Positions 1 to 42,982 of a stretch of DNA of 64,000 nt are shown piece after piece. The position numbers and the translations under genes are program-made. Under the pieces are notes generated by a model, which did not search any database, was not told where the DNA came from, and saw only the letters and a program-made list of their open reading frames with translations. The DNA lies in contig SVQK01000056.1 in assembly GCA_015065385.1 (NCBI GenBank), positions 1 to 64,000 on the forward strand, written 5' to 3'. How positions within the stretch are numbered: the stretch's first letter is position 1; each line of letters opens with the position of its first letter. Source of the DNA: Oscillospiraceae bacterium. GTDB lineage: Bacteria; Bacillota; Clostridia; Oscillospirales; CAG-272.

Positions 1-220
1 AGTGGATCCGGTAGCTGGACGTGTAGCCTTTGCCCCGCAGGTGAGTGGGCTCCACCCGGAAAACCTCCGGCTTCGGGGGCATACCGTCAAATTCCAATCC
101 TATCGTGTCTTCGAGGATCTCCGACCGCCTCGCTTTCCATTCCTCAAGGTTTTTCACCCTGTGCCCGTCACGGCAGACGAACGGGTCCGGCAGCATCCCA
201 AGACGCTGATCTTTGCGCAT
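1..220 (-). CDS. Carbohydrate esterase-like protein, N-terminal fragment
   Basis: Partial gene running off the left edge; the ORF track omits it. The minus strand reads from ATG at 220 for 73 codons with no stop, after a strong ribosome site (agggaggt, 7 nt upstream). The start has no signal peptide. It contains PDPFVCRDGHRVKNLEEWKA followed by RRSEILEDTIGLEFDGMPPKP. This layout (PFxxxDGxxVxxxEEWxxRRxEI, then a G-MPP turn) is what I remember from the N-termini of glucuronoyl or acetylxylan esterase-like alpha/beta hydrolases. The catalytic region lies outside the window, so the activity cannot be tested. A minus-strand sigma-A promoter sits just upstream. Confidence 0.55.
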   Translation of the reverse strand, partial: MRKDQRLGMLPDPFVCRDGHRVKNLEEWKARRSEILEDTIGLEFDGMPPKPEVFRVEPTHLRGKGYTSSYRIH

Positions 221-27925: not shown

Positions 27926-28525
27926 TTACAGACTGTTCAGGATGCCCGCGAGCAGTTCGTCATAGGTTTCGAATGCCGGAAGATCCGGGTTGTCGCGGCG
28001 GATCGCGTCGGTCGTGCGGAACAGGAAACCGGCCTTGCTCTGACGGATCATGGCCAGATCGTTGAAGCTGTCCCCGGCCGCGACGGTTTCGATCCCCATG
28101 GACTGAAAGGCTTTGACCGTCGTCAGCTTCGGAGAAGGACACCGGAGGGTATAGCCTGTGATCGTCCCGTCTTGCGCCACAGTCAGCTGATTGCACAGGA
28201 TCGTGGGGCGTCCCAGCTTTTTCATCAGCGGATCCGCAAACTGCGTGAAGGTGTCGCTGAGGATCACCACCTGAGCTTCTTCCCGGAGCGCGTCCAGAAA
28301 CTCCCTTGCGCCGGGCATCGGGTCGATCGTCTGAATGGTCTTCTGAATCTGAGAAAGTCCCAGACCGTGTTCCTTCAAAATCTGAATACGGCTTTTCATC
28401 AGCTTGTCGTAATCCGGTTCGTCCCGGGTGGTCCGGCGGAGTTCGGGAATCCCCGCGGCCTCTGCGAACGCGATCCAGATCTCCGGCACAAGCACACCTT
28501 CCAGATCCAAACATACCAGCGTCAT
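27926..28525 (-). CDS. thrH: ThrH-like HAD phosphatase (phosphoserine phosphatase / homoserine phosphotransferase)
   Basis: A 199-aa HAD-family enzyme. Motif I is CLDLEGVLVPEIWIAFAE (the ThrH form, DLEG in place of DxDGT), then TTRDEPDYDKLM, motif II ILSDTFTQFADPLMKKLG, a motif III Lys region (PSPKLTTVKAF) and motif IV AAGDSFNDLAM. This matches ThrH as I recall it; that enzyme moves phosphate between phosphoserine and homoserine or simply hydrolyses phosphoserine. It lies 105 nt downstream of the RiPP locus on the same strand. It is probably an independent metabolic gene, but a link through phosphoserine is conceivable given the kinase in that locus. Confidence 0.85.
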   Translation of the reverse strand: MTLVCLDLEGVLVPEIWIAFAEAAGIPELRRTTRDEPDYDKLMKSRIQILKEHGLGLSQIQKTIQTIDPMPGAREFLDALREEAQVVILSDTFTQFADPLMKKLGRPTILCNQLTVAQDGTITGYTLRCPSPKLTTVKAFQSMGIETVAAGDSFNDLAMIRQSKAGFLFRTTDAIRRDNPDLPAFETYDELLAGILNSL

Positions 28526-28630: not shown

Positions 28631-29086
28631 TCAGAGCGAACCGGATCGCCTTCTGCGGAATCCCATTTTTTTCAATACCCGCTCTGCCAGGCGAACGCCG
28701 CAGACGGTCGCCGCTCTGACCGGATAAACCGCGTTCCAGAATCGGACGTAGGCCCGATAGGTTTTATCCTCCGCGCCGATTTCCTTTCCGTTCCGCTGAA
28801 ATCCCGTCAGCACGCCGATCACAGCGTCGTCCGGAACCGTTTCCAGAGCGTAGGTGTTGTCTCCCCGGATCAGGTAATACCCCTCCCGGACCTCGATCAC
28901 CCGGTGGAGCACATATGCATCCCCGCGCCGGTAGAGGGCGACGTCCAGGGGCTTCAGCCGCCCTTCCGGTACCCGGATCATCACAAGATCCCGGTTCTGC
29001 CGCAGCATCGGACGCATGCTCACGCCTTTGGTTTTGTACACCAGAACGCCGTCCCGGGCAAGAAGCTCGTCAAAGGTTCCGCTCAT
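28631..29086 (-). CDS. S26/S24-type serine peptidase of the RiPP locus
   Basis: A 151-aa peptidase-like protein. The box around the nucleophile is TKGVSMRPML (Ser23), and the second box is YVLHRVIEVREGYYLIRGDN, where His61 replaces the Lys of classical bacterial signal peptidase I. That gives a Ser-His pair like SipW or ER-type signal peptidases. No clear N-terminal membrane anchor is seen. Its ATG overlaps the PqqD gene stop by 4 nt (ATGA), so it belongs to the maturation operon. A likely role is removing the precursor leader (inference). LexA-like S24 function is unlikely, as there is no DNA-binding domain. Confidence 0.75.
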   Translation of the reverse strand: MSGTFDELLARDGVLVYKTKGVSMRPMLRQNRDLVMIRVPEGRLKPLDVALYRRGDAYVLHRVIEVREGYYLIRGDNTYALETVPDDAVIGVLTGFQRNGKEIGAEDKTYRAYVRFWNAVYPVRAATVCGVRLAERVLKKMGFRRRRSGSL

Positions 29087-29343
29087 TCCTCAAGCGCATG
29101 GATCCGGCGCAGGGTGTTCAGAATGGTTTCCACGTCTTTTGCGATGGTTTCCCGGGGCGCGTCGTATTTTTTGCACATGGCGTCCACGATCTGATCTTTC
29201 GTGGTCTCCTCTTTCAGGCAGTTCACGATGAACGCCGCGGTTTTGTTGCTCCGCACGATGCCGTGGAAGGTCTCGGCTCCGACCGGCACCAGAAACTGGG
29301 TGCCTTCGATGTCCTGTGTGATGAAATCGTCTTTGAGTTTCAT
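29083..29343 (-). CDS. PqqD-like peptide-recognition protein
   Basis: An 86-aa protein with the PqqD/RRE pattern: three N-terminal beta strands (FITQDIEGTQFLVPVGAETF), then NKTAAFIVNCLKEETTKDQI and a C-terminal helix with DVETILNTLRRI. PqqD proteins bind RiPP leader peptides and pass them to the radical SAM maturase. The start follows aggaga. It sits between the maturase (19-nt gap) and the peptidase (4-nt overlap). Confidence 0.85.
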   Translation of the reverse strand: MKLKDDFITQDIEGTQFLVPVGAETFHGIVRSNKTAAFIVNCLKEETTKDQIVDAMCKKYDAPRETIAKDVETILNTLRRIHALEE

Positions 29344-30725: not shown

Positions 30726-30761
30726 AAAATGCGGCATGCAGAATGGTACATACCGCATTTT
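30726..30761 (-). terminator. Leaky terminator between precursor and maturase genes
   Basis: On the minus strand aaaatgcgg-tatg...catg-ccgcatttt forms a stem with a T-rich tail (ttttcctt) right after the precursor stop. Such sites often raise precursor mRNA above that of the maturation enzymes. Confidence 0.6.
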
Positions 30762-30769
30762 ATCGTTTG

Positions 30770-30928
30770 TTAGAGAGACTCTTTGTTGACCGGGCGGCTG
30801 CTGTCGATTCCGTATCCATTTCCAGGGCTACCGCCATTTTCAGTACCAGTACCAACACAATCACCAATAGTTATGAGTTCATCCTCGATCTCCACGACCT
30901 CCATGACGGGCGTTTCGTATGCTTCCAT
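30770..30928 (-). CDS. Candidate RiPP precursor peptide
   Basis: A 52-aa ORF, absent from the ORF track, with a strong ribosome site (aaggaggag, 8 nt before ATG). The first half is acidic and leader-like (MEAYETPVMEVVEIEDELIT). The second half is rich in Gly, Thr, Asn and Ser, with one Cys at position 24 (IGDCVGTGTENGGSPGNGYG) and a tail ending RPVNKESL. Its leader/core contrast, position between the kinase-like and radical SAM genes, and following leaky terminator all fit a RiPP precursor. With a single Cys it does not match multi-Cys sactipeptide or ranthipeptide cores. Possible modified residues are Cys24, Tyr39, Asn/Asp and the C-terminal Ser51. Confidence 0.8.
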   Translation of the reverse strand: MEAYETPVMEVVEIEDELITIGDCVGTGTENGGSPGNGYGIDSSRPVNKESL

Positions 30929-30975
30929 GCTGTATCTCCTCCTTTCCGAAGATGTAATTTCTATGCCAATCCGGA

Positions 30976-31722
30976 TTACCGGTCTTGACCTTGATTCATC
31001 CCCTCATACGCGATCTTTGCCGCTTCGGGATCCATGTTGCAGCCCAGTTTATAAAACGGAACGGTGTTCAGAATCCGCTTTTCCATCTCTGCAATCCGCC
31101 GGGCGACCACGGGCTTTTCCGACGAGAAGCATTGGCCGAAAAGCGTGGGATAGGCGTCCGCTGCGCTCAGGGGGGTGATCCGGTTTTCCGCATCACGTTC
31201 CAGCTTTACGATAGCTTTCAGCGGTGCGGAGGCGTTCCGACCGAGACCGTGCTTGCCCTTCCAGGGAGAGCCGTACACCGTGACACCTTCCTCCGCAACT
31301 TTCAGCATAGGCTTGTCGTCGTTTACCATCCAGACCCGATTCCCAAAGACTTCCCGCCAGAGCCGGGCGTGTGTGCTCTTGCCGGTTCCGCTTTTTGCGG
31401 TGAAAACGTAGGCTTCTCCGTCCATGCTAAGCGCAGAGCCGTGCATGGCGATAACGTCGAACTCTGTCAGGGTTTCCGCCAGCAGCGTGTGAATGGCGGA
31501 GTTTTCCAGAGCAACATCAGTTTTTTGGACAGGTTCGAACCCAGCGCGTCTGCATAAAAAATCAAATCCTTCCTGTATTTTCGAAAGATCGCTTTCCTTC
31601 GGCTCGATAGACAAGAGCGGTTCCTTGTCCGTTCGAAAGTCTTTCAGGAAAGCTTCGGTCTCTGAAAACCGACAGCGGATTTCCACAGGTACACCGGCGA
31701 TCTCAACTCTGAAAATGGGCAC
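30976..31722 (-). CDS. HPr kinase/PEPCK-like ATP-binding protein of the RiPP locus
   Basis: A 248-aa protein starting with GTG at 31722 (aaggag 8 nt upstream). It carries an HPr-kinase-type P-loop AKSGTGKSTHARLW (109-122), a preceding MHGSALSMDGEAYVF strand and NDDKPML (metal or catalytic Asp), followed by GSPWKGKHG. The N-terminal 75 residues are not from HPr kinase. It lacks the long HPr kinase N-domain. Similar stand-alone kinases modify lasso peptides (paeninodin type) at a C-terminal Ser; here the precursor ends in ESL. First gene of the RiPP operon, behind a perfect-spacing promoter and 47 nt upstream of the precursor. Confidence 0.75.
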   Translation of the reverse strand: MPIFRVEIAGVPVEIRCRFSETEAFLKDFRTDKEPLLSIEPKESDLSKIQEGFDFLCRRAGFEPVQKTDVALENSAIHTLLAETLTEFDVIAMHGSALSMDGEAYVFTAKSGTGKSTHARLWREVFGNRVWMVNDDKPMLKVAEEGVTVYGSPWKGKHGLGRNASAPLKAIVKLERDAENRITPLSAADAYPTLFGQCFSSEKPVVARRIAEMEKRILNTVPFYKLGCNMDPEAAKIAYEGMNQGQDR

Positions 31723-31794: not shown

Positions 31795-31823
31795 ATTATA
31801 GACCAGTTTTCCCCCAAAGTCAA
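31795..31823 (-). promoter_or_regulatory. Sigma-A promoter of the RiPP operon
   Basis: On the minus strand TTGACT, 17-nt spacer, TATAAT, about 72 nt before GTG 31722. It separates the RiPP operon from the ABC exporter gene upstream. Confidence 0.8.
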
Positions 31824-39648: not shown

Positions 39649-41169
39649 TCAGTCGTCCAGACCTTCGAACGCCTTGATGAGCTTGTCCATGGTCTTGCTC
39701 CAGACCTTCGAGTTCTTGGCGATGGTGGAAGCGATGGATTCTTCCTTCGCGTCCGCGCGTCCGCGGAAGAAGTGGTTGATGTCGCCGAGCTTGTTGGACC
39801 ACTGCGCCGCGAAGTCAATGGAGATGTTCTCGTGGCAAAGCTCGATCATCCGGCCGGAGTCGGAGTCGCGGGTGAACTTCACCTTTAGCGCGATCTCATA
39901 GTAAGCGGGCGTGACTTCCTTGAAGGATTCGGAGGCCAGCGCTTCGAGAACCGCGGAGAGGCACTCCGTACCGCCGATGGATACCGGAACGCCGAACAGC
40001 GTGCAGGAGTCGTGGATTCTCGTGTTGTAATGCGGCTGCGTGTCATCCAGCTTCGGCATCGGGAGGATCTTGAAGTCGTCCTCCATGTCGCGCAGGTAGA
40101 TCGGGGACTGGTAGAGCTTGTTGTCGGTCATCATGAACTGACCGGCGGAGAAAGCGGTCATGATGGCGACGGAGTCGTCCGTGCCGACGGGATTGAGCAT
40201 GCAGGCTTCGTTGTTGAACATGAGAGAGTAGTACTTGTCCCAGAATTTGTAGGTCCACTCGTTGTCGAGGGAGATGACCGGGATGTTGTTCTCGTCGCGG
40301 GTCGAGAAATCGACCATGCAGCCCGCCGCAATGCCGTCCGTCAGGTCGTTGGACTGGGTCACGAAGCCGAACTGGTCGTTTCCGTCCACGGAGCCGTTGC
40401 CGTTCAGGTCAACATACGCGGCGGAGGAGAGCTCCGAGACCTTGTCCATCGTCCAGCTGCCTTCATCGACGATGGAGTACAGATTGAGTTCCGGATAGTA
40501 GTTGCTGAAAATCGTGGAGTTGACGTAGGTGACGTACATGCCGCCCGTGTAGCGGAGCGCGATGTCGCCGGTGGCCCAGTACATCTTCTGGCCGTCGAAG
40601 GACATGTTCTTCATGTAGCCGGAGCCCCAGTATTCGCGGTCGAAATCGTTGTAGGGGAAGTTTTCCTTGTTGTTCAGGTTGTAAAGGATGCCCTCGCTGC
40701 CGATGACGATTCCGTAGTACTGATAGGCGCCGAACACGTCGTAGTCGGTGGATCCGGCGCTGACCATGTTGCGGATGACGGTGGCGTTGCCGCTCCAGTC
40801 GGTGTTGACTTCCGGCTGGTTGATGGTGATGTTGAGTCGGTCCGTAACGGTCAGGTTTCTCTGGAAGACGGCGGAGTCAACGACTTCACCGGTGTCCTCC
40901 TCGGCCCAGATCGACAGCTCGGTGATGTTGCCGTTCGATCCTTCGGTTAGGAGGAAGTTGAGTCCGCGGCCCTCAAAGTCCATCGTCTCGGGCATGGAAT
41001 CGAGGAATCGGGCGGTCTCTTCCTCCTCGGTCAGATCCGCGGTCGGGGTCTGGGAGTTCGACTGGTTGTTCTTCTGTTCGTCCGCCGCGTTCTCCGAGTT
41101 GGTGGAGCAGGCGGCCAGAGATCCGGCCAGAAGAAGCGCGGCCAGAAGAACGGATAACGATTTCTTCAT
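39649..41169 (-). CDS. Extracellular solute-binding lipoprotein (paralogue 4, tandem pair)
   Basis: A 506-aa lipoprotein; start ATG 41169 (aaaggga upstream). Signal 1-20, lipobox LAAC (Cys21), Asn/Gln/Thr-rich linker. Mature part: MDFEGRGLNFLLTEGSN, GEVVDSAVFQRN, DREYWGSGYM, AAYVDLNGNGSVDGNDQFGF and AYYEIALKVKFTRDS. Same length and nearly the same sequence along its whole length as the next gene upstream, so it is a recent tandem duplicate. It has its own promoter (41227-41255). Ligand unknown; the C-terminal ends in EGLDD. Confidence 0.8.
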   Translation of the reverse strand: MKKSLSVLLAALLLAGSLAACSTNSENAADEQKNNQSNSQTPTADLTEEEETARFLDSMPETMDFEGRGLNFLLTEGSNGNITELSIWAEEDTGEVVDSAVFQRNLTVTDRLNITINQPEVNTDWSGNATVIRNMVSAGSTDYDVFGAYQYYGIVIGSEGILYNLNNKENFPYNDFDREYWGSGYMKNMSFDGQKMYWATGDIALRYTGGMYVTYVNSTIFSNYYPELNLYSIVDEGSWTMDKVSELSSAAYVDLNGNGSVDGNDQFGFVTQSNDLTDGIAAGCMVDFSTRDENNIPVISLDNEWTYKFWDKYYSLMFNNEACMLNPVGTDDSVAIMTAFSAGQFMMTDNKLYQSPIYLRDMEDDFKILPMPKLDDTQPHYNTRIHDSCTLFGVPVSIGGTECLSAVLEALASESFKEVTPAYYEIALKVKFTRDSDSGRMIELCHENISIDFAAQWSNKLGDINHFFRGRADAKEESIASTIAKNSKVWSKTMDKLIKAFEGLDD

Positions 41170-41226
41170 TTGTGTTTTCCCTTTCTGAAAAACTGAAAAA
41201 CACCGCATTTCGGTGTGTACTTATTC

Positions 41227-41255
41227 ATTATAGCGCACTATCGATTGAATTGCAA
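41227..41255 (-). promoter_or_regulatory. Sigma-A promoter for lipoprotein paralogue 4
   Basis: On the minus strand TTGCAA, 17-nt spacer, TATAAT, 58 nt before ATG 41169. Confidence 0.75.
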
Positions 41256-41296
41256 GAGGTTTCCGGGAGAAAATGAAAAAACTCGATCGAAAGACG

Positions 41297-41335
41297 CAAA
41301 AACACTCCCGAAACGGGCGGACCGTCCCGGGAGTG
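41297..41335 (-). terminator. Terminator between the tandem lipoprotein genes
   Basis: On the minus strand cactcccg / cgggagtg perfect stem followed by tttttg, 34 nt after the stop of paralogue 5. The two copies are thus separate transcription units. Confidence 0.85.
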
Positions 41336-41368
41336 CCGATGGTGTTCGGTTTGGCTGTTCCGCGCTGA

Positions 41369-42889
41369 TCAGTCGTCGAGGCCTTCCAGAGAGGAGACGA
41401 GCTTGCTCATGGATTTGTCCCAGACCTTCTGATTCTTCTGGAGCGTGGAGGCGATGGCTTCGTTGCCGGCGTCCGCGCACTTGCGGAAGAAGTGGTTGAT
41501 GTCGCCGAGCTTGTTGGACCACTGCGCCGCGAAGTCGATGGTGACGTTCTCGTGAACCAGCTCGATCATGCGCCCGGAGTCGGAGTCGCGGGTGAACTTG
41601 ACCTTCAGCGCGATCTCATAGTAAGCGGGGGTGACTTCCTTGAAGGACTCGGAGGCCAGCGCTTCGAGAGAGGCAGAGATGCAGTCCGTGCCGCCGACGG
41701 TGACGGGAACGCCGAAGATCGTGCAGGAGTCGTGGATTCTGGTGTTGTAGTGTTCCTGTTCCACGTTCAGTTTCGGAAGGGGCAGGATCTTGAAGTCGTC
41801 TTCCATGTCGCGGAGGTAGATCGGGGACTGGAAGAGCTTGTTGCAGGTCATCATGTACTGGCCCGCGCCGAAGTTGGTCATGATGGCGACGGAGTCGTCG
41901 GTTTCGGGGTTCAGCATGACGCCTTCGTTGTTGAACATGAGGGCGTAGTATTTGTCCCAGAAGGTGTAGGTGCGCTCGTTGTCCAGCGTGATGTAGGGCA
42001 GGCCGGCCTCGTTGCGGGAGGAGAAGTCCACCATACAGCCCGCGGCCATACCGTCGGTCGGGTCGATGGACTGGAGCACGAAGCCGAACTGGTCCTTCTT
42101 GTCCTTCTTGCCGTCCGCGTTCAGGTCGATGTACACGCTCTTGGCGAGCTCCGCGATCTTGTCCATGGTCCATTCGCCTTCGTCCACGATGGCGTAGAGA
42201 TTGACGTCCGGATAGAAGTCGGTGAAGATCTTGGAGTTGACGTAGGTGACGTACATGCCGCCGGTGTACCGGAGAGCCAGGTCGCCGGTCGCCCAGTACA
42301 TTTTCTGCCCGTCGTAGGACATGTTCTTCATGTAGCCGGAGCCCCAGTATTCGCGGTCAAAGTCGTTGTAGGGGAAGTTGTCCTTGTTGTTCAGGTTGAG
42401 CAGCATGCCCTCGGACGCCAGCACGATGTTGTAGTACTGGTAGCCGCCGAACACGTCGTATTCTGCGGAACCGGACTTGACGGCGTTGCGGATGCTGTTG
42501 CCGTTCGCGCCGGAGTCGGTGGAGACGATCGGCTGGTTGATGACGATGTTGAGACGTTCGGTCACGGTCAGGTTTCTCTTGAAGACGGCGGCGTCCACGA
42601 CTTCGCCCGTGTCTTCTTCGGCCCAGATGGACTGCTCGGTGATGTTGCCGTTTGCGCCCTCAGTCAAAAGGAAGTTCAGTCCGCGGCCCTCAAAGTTCAT
42701 CTCTTCGGGCATGGAGTCGAGGAAGCGCGCGGTCTCTTCGACCTCTTCGGTCAGGTCGGCAGTCGGGGTCTGGGTGTTCGTCTGGGTGGTCTTCTGTTCT
42801 TCCGCGGCGTTCTCCGTGTTGGTGGAGCAGGCAGCCAGGGAAGAAGCCAGAAGGAGCGCGGCCAGAAGAACGGATAACGATTTCTTCAT
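41369..42889 (-). CDS. Extracellular solute-binding lipoprotein (paralogue 5, tandem pair)
   Basis: A 506-aa lipoprotein; start ATG 42889, not 42982, which falls in the -35 box. Signal and lipobox are as in paralogue 4 (Cys21). It differs mainly in the linker and in the calcium-loop-like stretch YIDLNADGKKDKKDQFGF, which is Lys-rich here. The promoters of the two copies also match in type (TTGCAA-17-TATAAT). The divergence pattern suggests possible specialisation for different ligands or conditions. Confidence 0.8.
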   Translation of the reverse strand: MKKSLSVLLAALLLASSLAACSTNTENAAEEQKTTQTNTQTPTADLTEEVEETARFLDSMPEEMNFEGRGLNFLLTEGANGNITEQSIWAEEDTGEVVDAAVFKRNLTVTERLNIVINQPIVSTDSGANGNSIRNAVKSGSAEYDVFGGYQYYNIVLASEGMLLNLNNKDNFPYNDFDREYWGSGYMKNMSYDGQKMYWATGDLALRYTGGMYVTYVNSKIFTDFYPDVNLYAIVDEGEWTMDKIAELAKSVYIDLNADGKKDKKDQFGFVLQSIDPTDGMAAGCMVDFSSRNEAGLPYITLDNERTYTFWDKYYALMFNNEGVMLNPETDDSVAIMTNFGAGQYMMTCNKLFQSPIYLRDMEDDFKILPLPKLNVEQEHYNTRIHDSCTIFGVPVTVGGTDCISASLEALASESFKEVTPAYYEIALKVKFTRDSDSGRMIELVHENVTIDFAAQWSNKLGDINHFFRKCADAGNEAIASTLQKNQKVWDKSMSKLVSSLEGLDD

Positions 42890-42953
42890 TTTGCGTTCGG
42901 CCTTTCTGGAAACAATAATAGATAAAACACCGTTATTCGGCGTAGACTGAATC

Positions 42954-42982
42954 ATTATATCACGGGTCGGGCCGGTTTGCAA
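42954..42982 (-). promoter_or_regulatory. Sigma-A promoter for lipoprotein paralogue 5
   Basis: On the minus strand TTGCAA, 17-nt spacer, TATAAT, 65 nt before ATG 42889. Confidence 0.75.

Follow-up and report, generated by a model that had tools for sequence, protein, structure and literature searches.

The stretch of DNA analysed here (the window, 64,000 nucleotides) carries on its minus strand a gene cassette in the order ABC exporter, promoter-like site, HprK-like kinase, precursor, radical SAM/SPASM maturase, PqqD-like RRE and signal-peptidase-like peptidase (Table 1). A sequence-only reading of the same DNA had named homologous maturases and a neighbouring HPr-kinase-like enzyme, and a radical SAM enzyme and such a kinase do belong to the cassette. 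The ABC exporter and kinase genes are separated by a gap of 133 bp that holds the promoter-like site, so the exporter may form a separate unit. Directly 3' of the cassette lies a gene for a ThrH-type phosphoserine phosphatase (27926-28525, minus strand), which was dropped as a candidate cassette phosphatase because it was not found in the best 80 of 577 kinase-related loci. Elsewhere in the window, a tandem pair of closely similar genes for solute-binding lipoproteins occupies positions 39649-42982 of the same strand.

Table 1. Features of the precursor cassette in the window.
Feature	Position	Strand	Remarks
MsbA-type ABC exporter, 582 aa	31856..33604	(-)	peptidase domain not recognised
Promoter-like TTGACT-17-TATAAT, 5' of kinase gene	31795..31823	(-)	consensus match only
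HprK/PEPCK-fold peptide kinase, 248 aa, LppK-like	30976..31722	(-)	P-loop SGTGKSTH, motif NDDKP
Shine-Dalgarno sequence AAAGGAGG	30938..30945	(-)	9 nt 5' of precursor ATG
RiPP precursor ORF (very probable), 52 aa, ATG start, MEAYETPVMEVVEIEDELITIGDCVGTGTENGGSPGNGYGIDSSRPVNKESL	30770..30928	(-)	read from sequence
Leader of precursor, MEAYETPVMEVVEIEDELIT	residues ~1-20		predicted leader/core junction
YxxP RRE motif (YETP)	residues 4-7 (Y4ETP7)		
Core of precursor, IGDCVGTGTENGGSPGNGYGIDSSRPVNKESL	residues ~21-52		predicted leader/core junction
Cys24 codon of precursor	30857..30859	(-)	predicted radical SAM maturase target, from the Cys/radical SAM association
15-bp hairpin between precursor and maturase	30726..30761	(-)	z -4.9
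Radical SAM/SPASM peptide maturase, 448 aa	29363..30709	(-)	cluster motif CNARCVYC
PqqD-like discrete RRE, 86 aa, LppB-like	29083..29343	(-)	N33 and D70 invariant
S24/S26 signal-peptidase-I-like leader peptidase, 151 aa, LppS-like	28631..29086	(-)	

Catalytic and leader-binding residues are conserved in the cassette. The predicted model of the kinase (pLDDT 95.9) matches HprK/P and PEPCK structures, and the SPASM cysteines of the maturase are invariant in a 21-row alignment. Among solved structures, 5wgg, which we take to be the thioether maturase CteB, lies closest to the maturase family. The best NCBIfam match of the maturase is Clo7bot, an assignment that was rejected since its score of 125.5 bits falls far under the cut-off of 600; PapB is also among the best family matches, below its cut-off. 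PADLOC matches to viperin reflect generic radical SAM similarity. In the RRE, N33 and D70 are invariant in a 19-row alignment, and the peptidase, whose predicted fold resembles signal peptidase I/LexA, keeps S23, H61 and D76 in 19 of 19 sequences.

The 52-residue ORF between the kinase and maturase genes is very probably a genuine RiPP precursor. The sequence-only reading had credited it with the strongest ribosome site in the locus, an acidic leader half and a single Cys; the ORF is present as described, AAAGGAGG is the longest anti-SD match among the cluster starts read off, and the acidic N-terminal half and the lone cysteine, Cys24, are both there. The peptide matched no database family in profile searches, and a direct search of 196 same-family genomes returned only itself because the core is too variable. 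Neither did a first scan of genome contigs with the window maturase alone yield a confirmed relative.

Relatives, most of them rumen and gut metagenome bins, were first located through their maturases, not through the peptide; a search with a kinase alignment gave 577 related places, of which the best 80 were kept. The relatives' maturases are adjoined by ORFs of 38-50 residues that have ribosome sites and a common leader. At eight clostridial-type loci (L046, L047, L048, L049, L051, L053, L056 and L057), with maturases 37-51% identical to that of the window, these short peptides combine the leader of the window precursor with a hypervariable core, and six of the loci (L046, L047, L048, L053, L056 and L057, the last with two cassettes) repeat the window's order of kinase, precursor, radical SAM enzyme and RRE. 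The aligned leaders of relatives read MEKYxKPSMEIVEI. The cores are unalignable except for that of the window against L046, where C4, G8, E10, S14 and G16 match without gaps (5 of 20 positions, shuffle p 0.02). A leader HMM built from the leaders beside homologous maturases and from one relative lacking a radical SAM gene (L035), with the window precursor left out, ranks that precursor first among 644 window ORFs (E 0.0043; next best 2.0).

These comparisons show the coding nature of the ORF and the conservation of its leader. A conserved leader and variable core beside the maturase, as the sequence-only reading had anticipated, are what the relatives at homologous maturases display. The same reading had named two grounds for abandoning the ORF, a reading frame not conserved in orthologous loci and nucleotide drift typical of non-coding DNA; instead, ORFs with the same leader stand at the same position in other genomes, and dS exceeds dN in close precursor pairs of relatives (0.32 vs 0.11, 0.49 vs 0.16 and 0.85 vs 0.15), so these pairs are under purifying selection. 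A chance ORF in an intergenic gap would agree with the short length, the absence of a database family and the empty direct search, but it is scarcely credible given the first rank in the leader HMM, the strong Shine-Dalgarno sequence, the conserved position and leader, and the purifying selection.

The gene set of kinase, RRE and peptidase, together with the exporter, matches that of the linear polyphosphorylated peptides (LPP; lppA/K/B/S/D/N) of Paenibacillus alginolyticus (Popov et al. 2026, PMC13381572). In that system, LppK adds phosphates to core Ser3, LppB binds a YxxP leader through N33 and D70, which hold the leader Pro and Tyr, LppS cuts after Thr-1, and an MsbA-like exporter belongs to the core set (PMC13381572). 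The window likewise has an HprK-like kinase, an MsbA-like exporter that is the probable counterpart of LppD by analogy, and a short precursor with a conserved YxxP leader and variable core. Its discrete PqqD-like RRE matches LppB of PDB 9x8z only weakly (E 0.21), with the invariant N33 and D70 at matching positions. Both systems have a signal-peptidase-like leader peptidase of the archaeal/SipW type, and that of the window has Ser, His and Asp; the Asp of LppS is D93, and its window equivalent is putative.

Despite this similarity, the two systems differ in several respects. The window cassette has a radical SAM/SPASM maturase and its core a Cys, the equivalent of Ser3 is missing from the peptide, an LppN-type NTP transferase (PF14907) was not found in the window's genome, and the kin of the window system are clostridial. 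The LPP leader consensus is YxxPxVLxHQxIxFETxxS (PMC13381572), of which the window peptide shares only YxxP and differs in the middle part; the FET of this consensus is found in clostridial relatives lacking a radical SAM gene. The main text of PMC13381572 mentions neither radical SAM enzymes nor Clostridia, and no further paper using the LPP name was found in the literature searched. The radical SAM step and its co-variation with Cys are new relative to LPP as published.

Other known systems resemble the cassette in part. Ranthipeptides and sactipeptides (CteB/SCIFF, PapB, Clo7bot) share the SPASM radical SAM maturase, the core Cys and the leader-dependent RiPP logic, but the window maturase does not reach the curated cut-off in any of these families, and the window system has a kinase, a discrete RRE, a signal-peptidase-like enzyme and often one Cys only. 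The SynChlorMet cassette (ScmC/ScmE/ScmF) and the HprK-related kinase A system also place an HprK-like protein beside radical SAM proteins, with ScmC and HprK_rel_A matches far under cut-off (19.5 vs 125 and 15.1 vs 200 bits). Paeninodin-like phosphorylated lasso peptides have in common an HprK-like kinase, a PqqD-like RRE, an ABC exporter and a leader logic of the YxxP type. Nevertheless, a lasso or paeninodin-like product is very improbable at the window locus, as the cluster has neither a macrolactam (lasso) cyclase nor a B2-type protease, the peptidase resembles signal peptidases, as it does in LPP, and the leader carries YxxP where paeninodins have WxxP.

The presence of Cys in the core tracks the radical SAM gene. 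Scoring a Cys after residue 20 against a radical SAM gene within 5 kb in 72 collected precursors, we observed Cys in 34 of 35 precursors near such a gene vs 4 of 37 without one (p 6e-15, or 3e-13 with near-duplicates and the window removed; these Fisher p-values treat sequences as independent). The kinase-near set gave 32 of 33 vs 3 of 28, and a further class-wide set 1 of 1 vs 2 of 10, with L050 not yet reassigned. A leader-type precursor was unrecognised at most kinase loci of the class-wide sample, which added few such precursors, and it is therefore chiefly the loci with kinases closest to that of the window that carry the test. Four Cys of precursors lacking a radical SAM gene sit at the leader/core junction (VLC, VIC, ITC). 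The precursor of L050, seemingly without the enzyme, has its Cys past the junction, and its locus proved to encode the enzyme within a kinase fusion. The kinase tree implies 11 changes in radical SAM content, four of them contrasts on well-supported branches; three with Cys agree, none is against and one is neutral (L050 still being counted as lacking the enzyme), which is too few for significance, so shared ancestry may contribute to the link.

The fusion gene (L050:6983-8848, plus strand) encodes 621 residues that join an HprK-like kinase to a PqqE/ScmF-like radical SAM/SPASM domain; genes for a leader-type precursor and an RRE come next. A related radical SAM domain adjoins a kinase at L038.

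Position within the core was also examined, with sequences taken as independent of ancestry: the first Cys falls within the first six core residues in 24 of 30 radical SAM-linked cores, and an Asp or Glu follows within six residues for 50 of 64 Cys, more than in shuffles. The view that the lone Cys excludes the customary multi-thioether patterns was misleading: no core feature other than Cys tracks the radical SAM gene, which makes one thioether, on Cys24, the favoured hypothesis. Judged from sequence, the maturase probably acts on the lone Cys24, and the modification would most likely be a thioether. The number of Cys in relatives' precursors ranges from 1 to 7 and their C termini are unrelated, so that neither the single Cys nor the ESL end is a family feature.

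Radical SAM/SPASM maturases elsewhere also form C-C links and epimers, and the same cassette could make a change independent of Cys (a C-C or C-O crosslink, or epimerisation), with Cys kept for dimerisation or metal binding, for example. The Cys at the far C terminus in L047, L048, L056 and L057c, off its usual place, would fit such a change. We consider it unlikely in view of the co-variation, of 5wgg as the nearest solved structure, and of the below-cut-off match to PapB, which joins Cys to Asp/Glu (PMC9413430). Still less probable is a peptide that is phosphorylated only, as a plain LPP, with the radical SAM gene serving another substrate. A radical SAM gene does occur at just 1 of 60 kinase loci in the class sample; against this stand the precursor lying between the kinase and maturase genes in several genomes, the Cys co-variation and the fusion at L050. 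Moreover, a leader search of the whole genome found no second leader-type precursor, and the single such precursor, the single RRE of its type and the single close maturase are all at the window locus.

The target of the kinase is less certain. The sequence-only reading had proposed the Ser of the C-terminal ESL, which finds no comparative support: ESL is not a conserved feature, Ser/Thr is missing close to the C terminus of several kinase-linked peptides, and the characterised LPP kinase instead uses core Ser3, directly after the cleavage site. Several peptides lacking a radical SAM gene (e.g. ...ITASGELPFVPAE and ...VILDSNELPILPAN) have no Ser/Thr beyond the junction, so the junction Ser is their likely kinase target, in agreement with Ser3 of LPP. 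The window precursor lacks the junction Ser that most relatives carry, which leaves its phosphosite uncertain; it has no Ser within 13 residues of the predicted junction, and the nearest core Ser is Ser34. At L072, L065, L094, L078 and L076, which lack a radical SAM gene, the precursors are the smallest of their kind among the loci examined (33-35 residues), with acidic or Pro-rich cores of ~7-10 residues past the junction (DDDDITMPEI, ELPFVPAE).

Altogether, our preferred reading, held with reasonable confidence, is that the ORF specifies an LPP-like RiPP precursor to whose pathway a radical SAM step has been added. For this product we infer chemistry, modification sites, cleavage point and export in the following order. 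The PqqD-like RRE would hold the leader through the YETP motif, and the maturase would then modify Cys24, most likely as a thioether, for which a neighbouring acidic residue, Glu30 for instance, is a possible acceptor. The kinase may subsequently phosphorylate a core Ser, with Ser34, the first after the predicted junction, as a tentative site. Finally, the Ser/His/Asp peptidase would cut at about Thr20/Ile21, and the MsbA-type exporter is predicted to release the product.

On a broader scale, the balance tilts slightly towards a two-chemistry RiPP class spread in rumen and gut Clostridia, in which an HprK-like kinase (poly)phosphorylates Ser of LPP-type peptides and a radical SAM enzyme crosslinks their Cys; in one lineage a single fused protein carries both enzymes. 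The proposed assignment would carry the LPP family, first described in 2026, beyond Bacilli into Clostridia of rumen and gut, with a radical enzyme added. The Cys/radical SAM link points to a residue to mutate and to shifts of -2 Da and +80 Da in the mass of one small peptide, and the short leader signature is a handle for many unannotated precursors of the same kind in gut genomes.

Further features accompany the precursor genes. Strong hairpins, unrelated in sequence, occupy the gap between precursor and maturase in most relatives examined, and the 15-bp hairpin of the window might act as an attenuator or mRNA end that raises precursor over enzyme output, as is common for such arrangements. 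L053, a MAG labelled Planctomycetales, carries two tandem cassettes whose cores are rich in Cys (four in one, seven in the other), and their occurrence in a bin of another phylum reflects either transfer or mis-binning. In Faecalibacterium prausnitzii (L064:9308-9660), a long run of the 4-bp repeat AGCA lies between two precursor genes and is a possible phase-variation site. At L014, L016, L021, L015 and L019, the precursors adjoin SLH-domain-like or 1700-1900-residue surface-like proteins, hinting at a biological role at the cell surface in some lineages.
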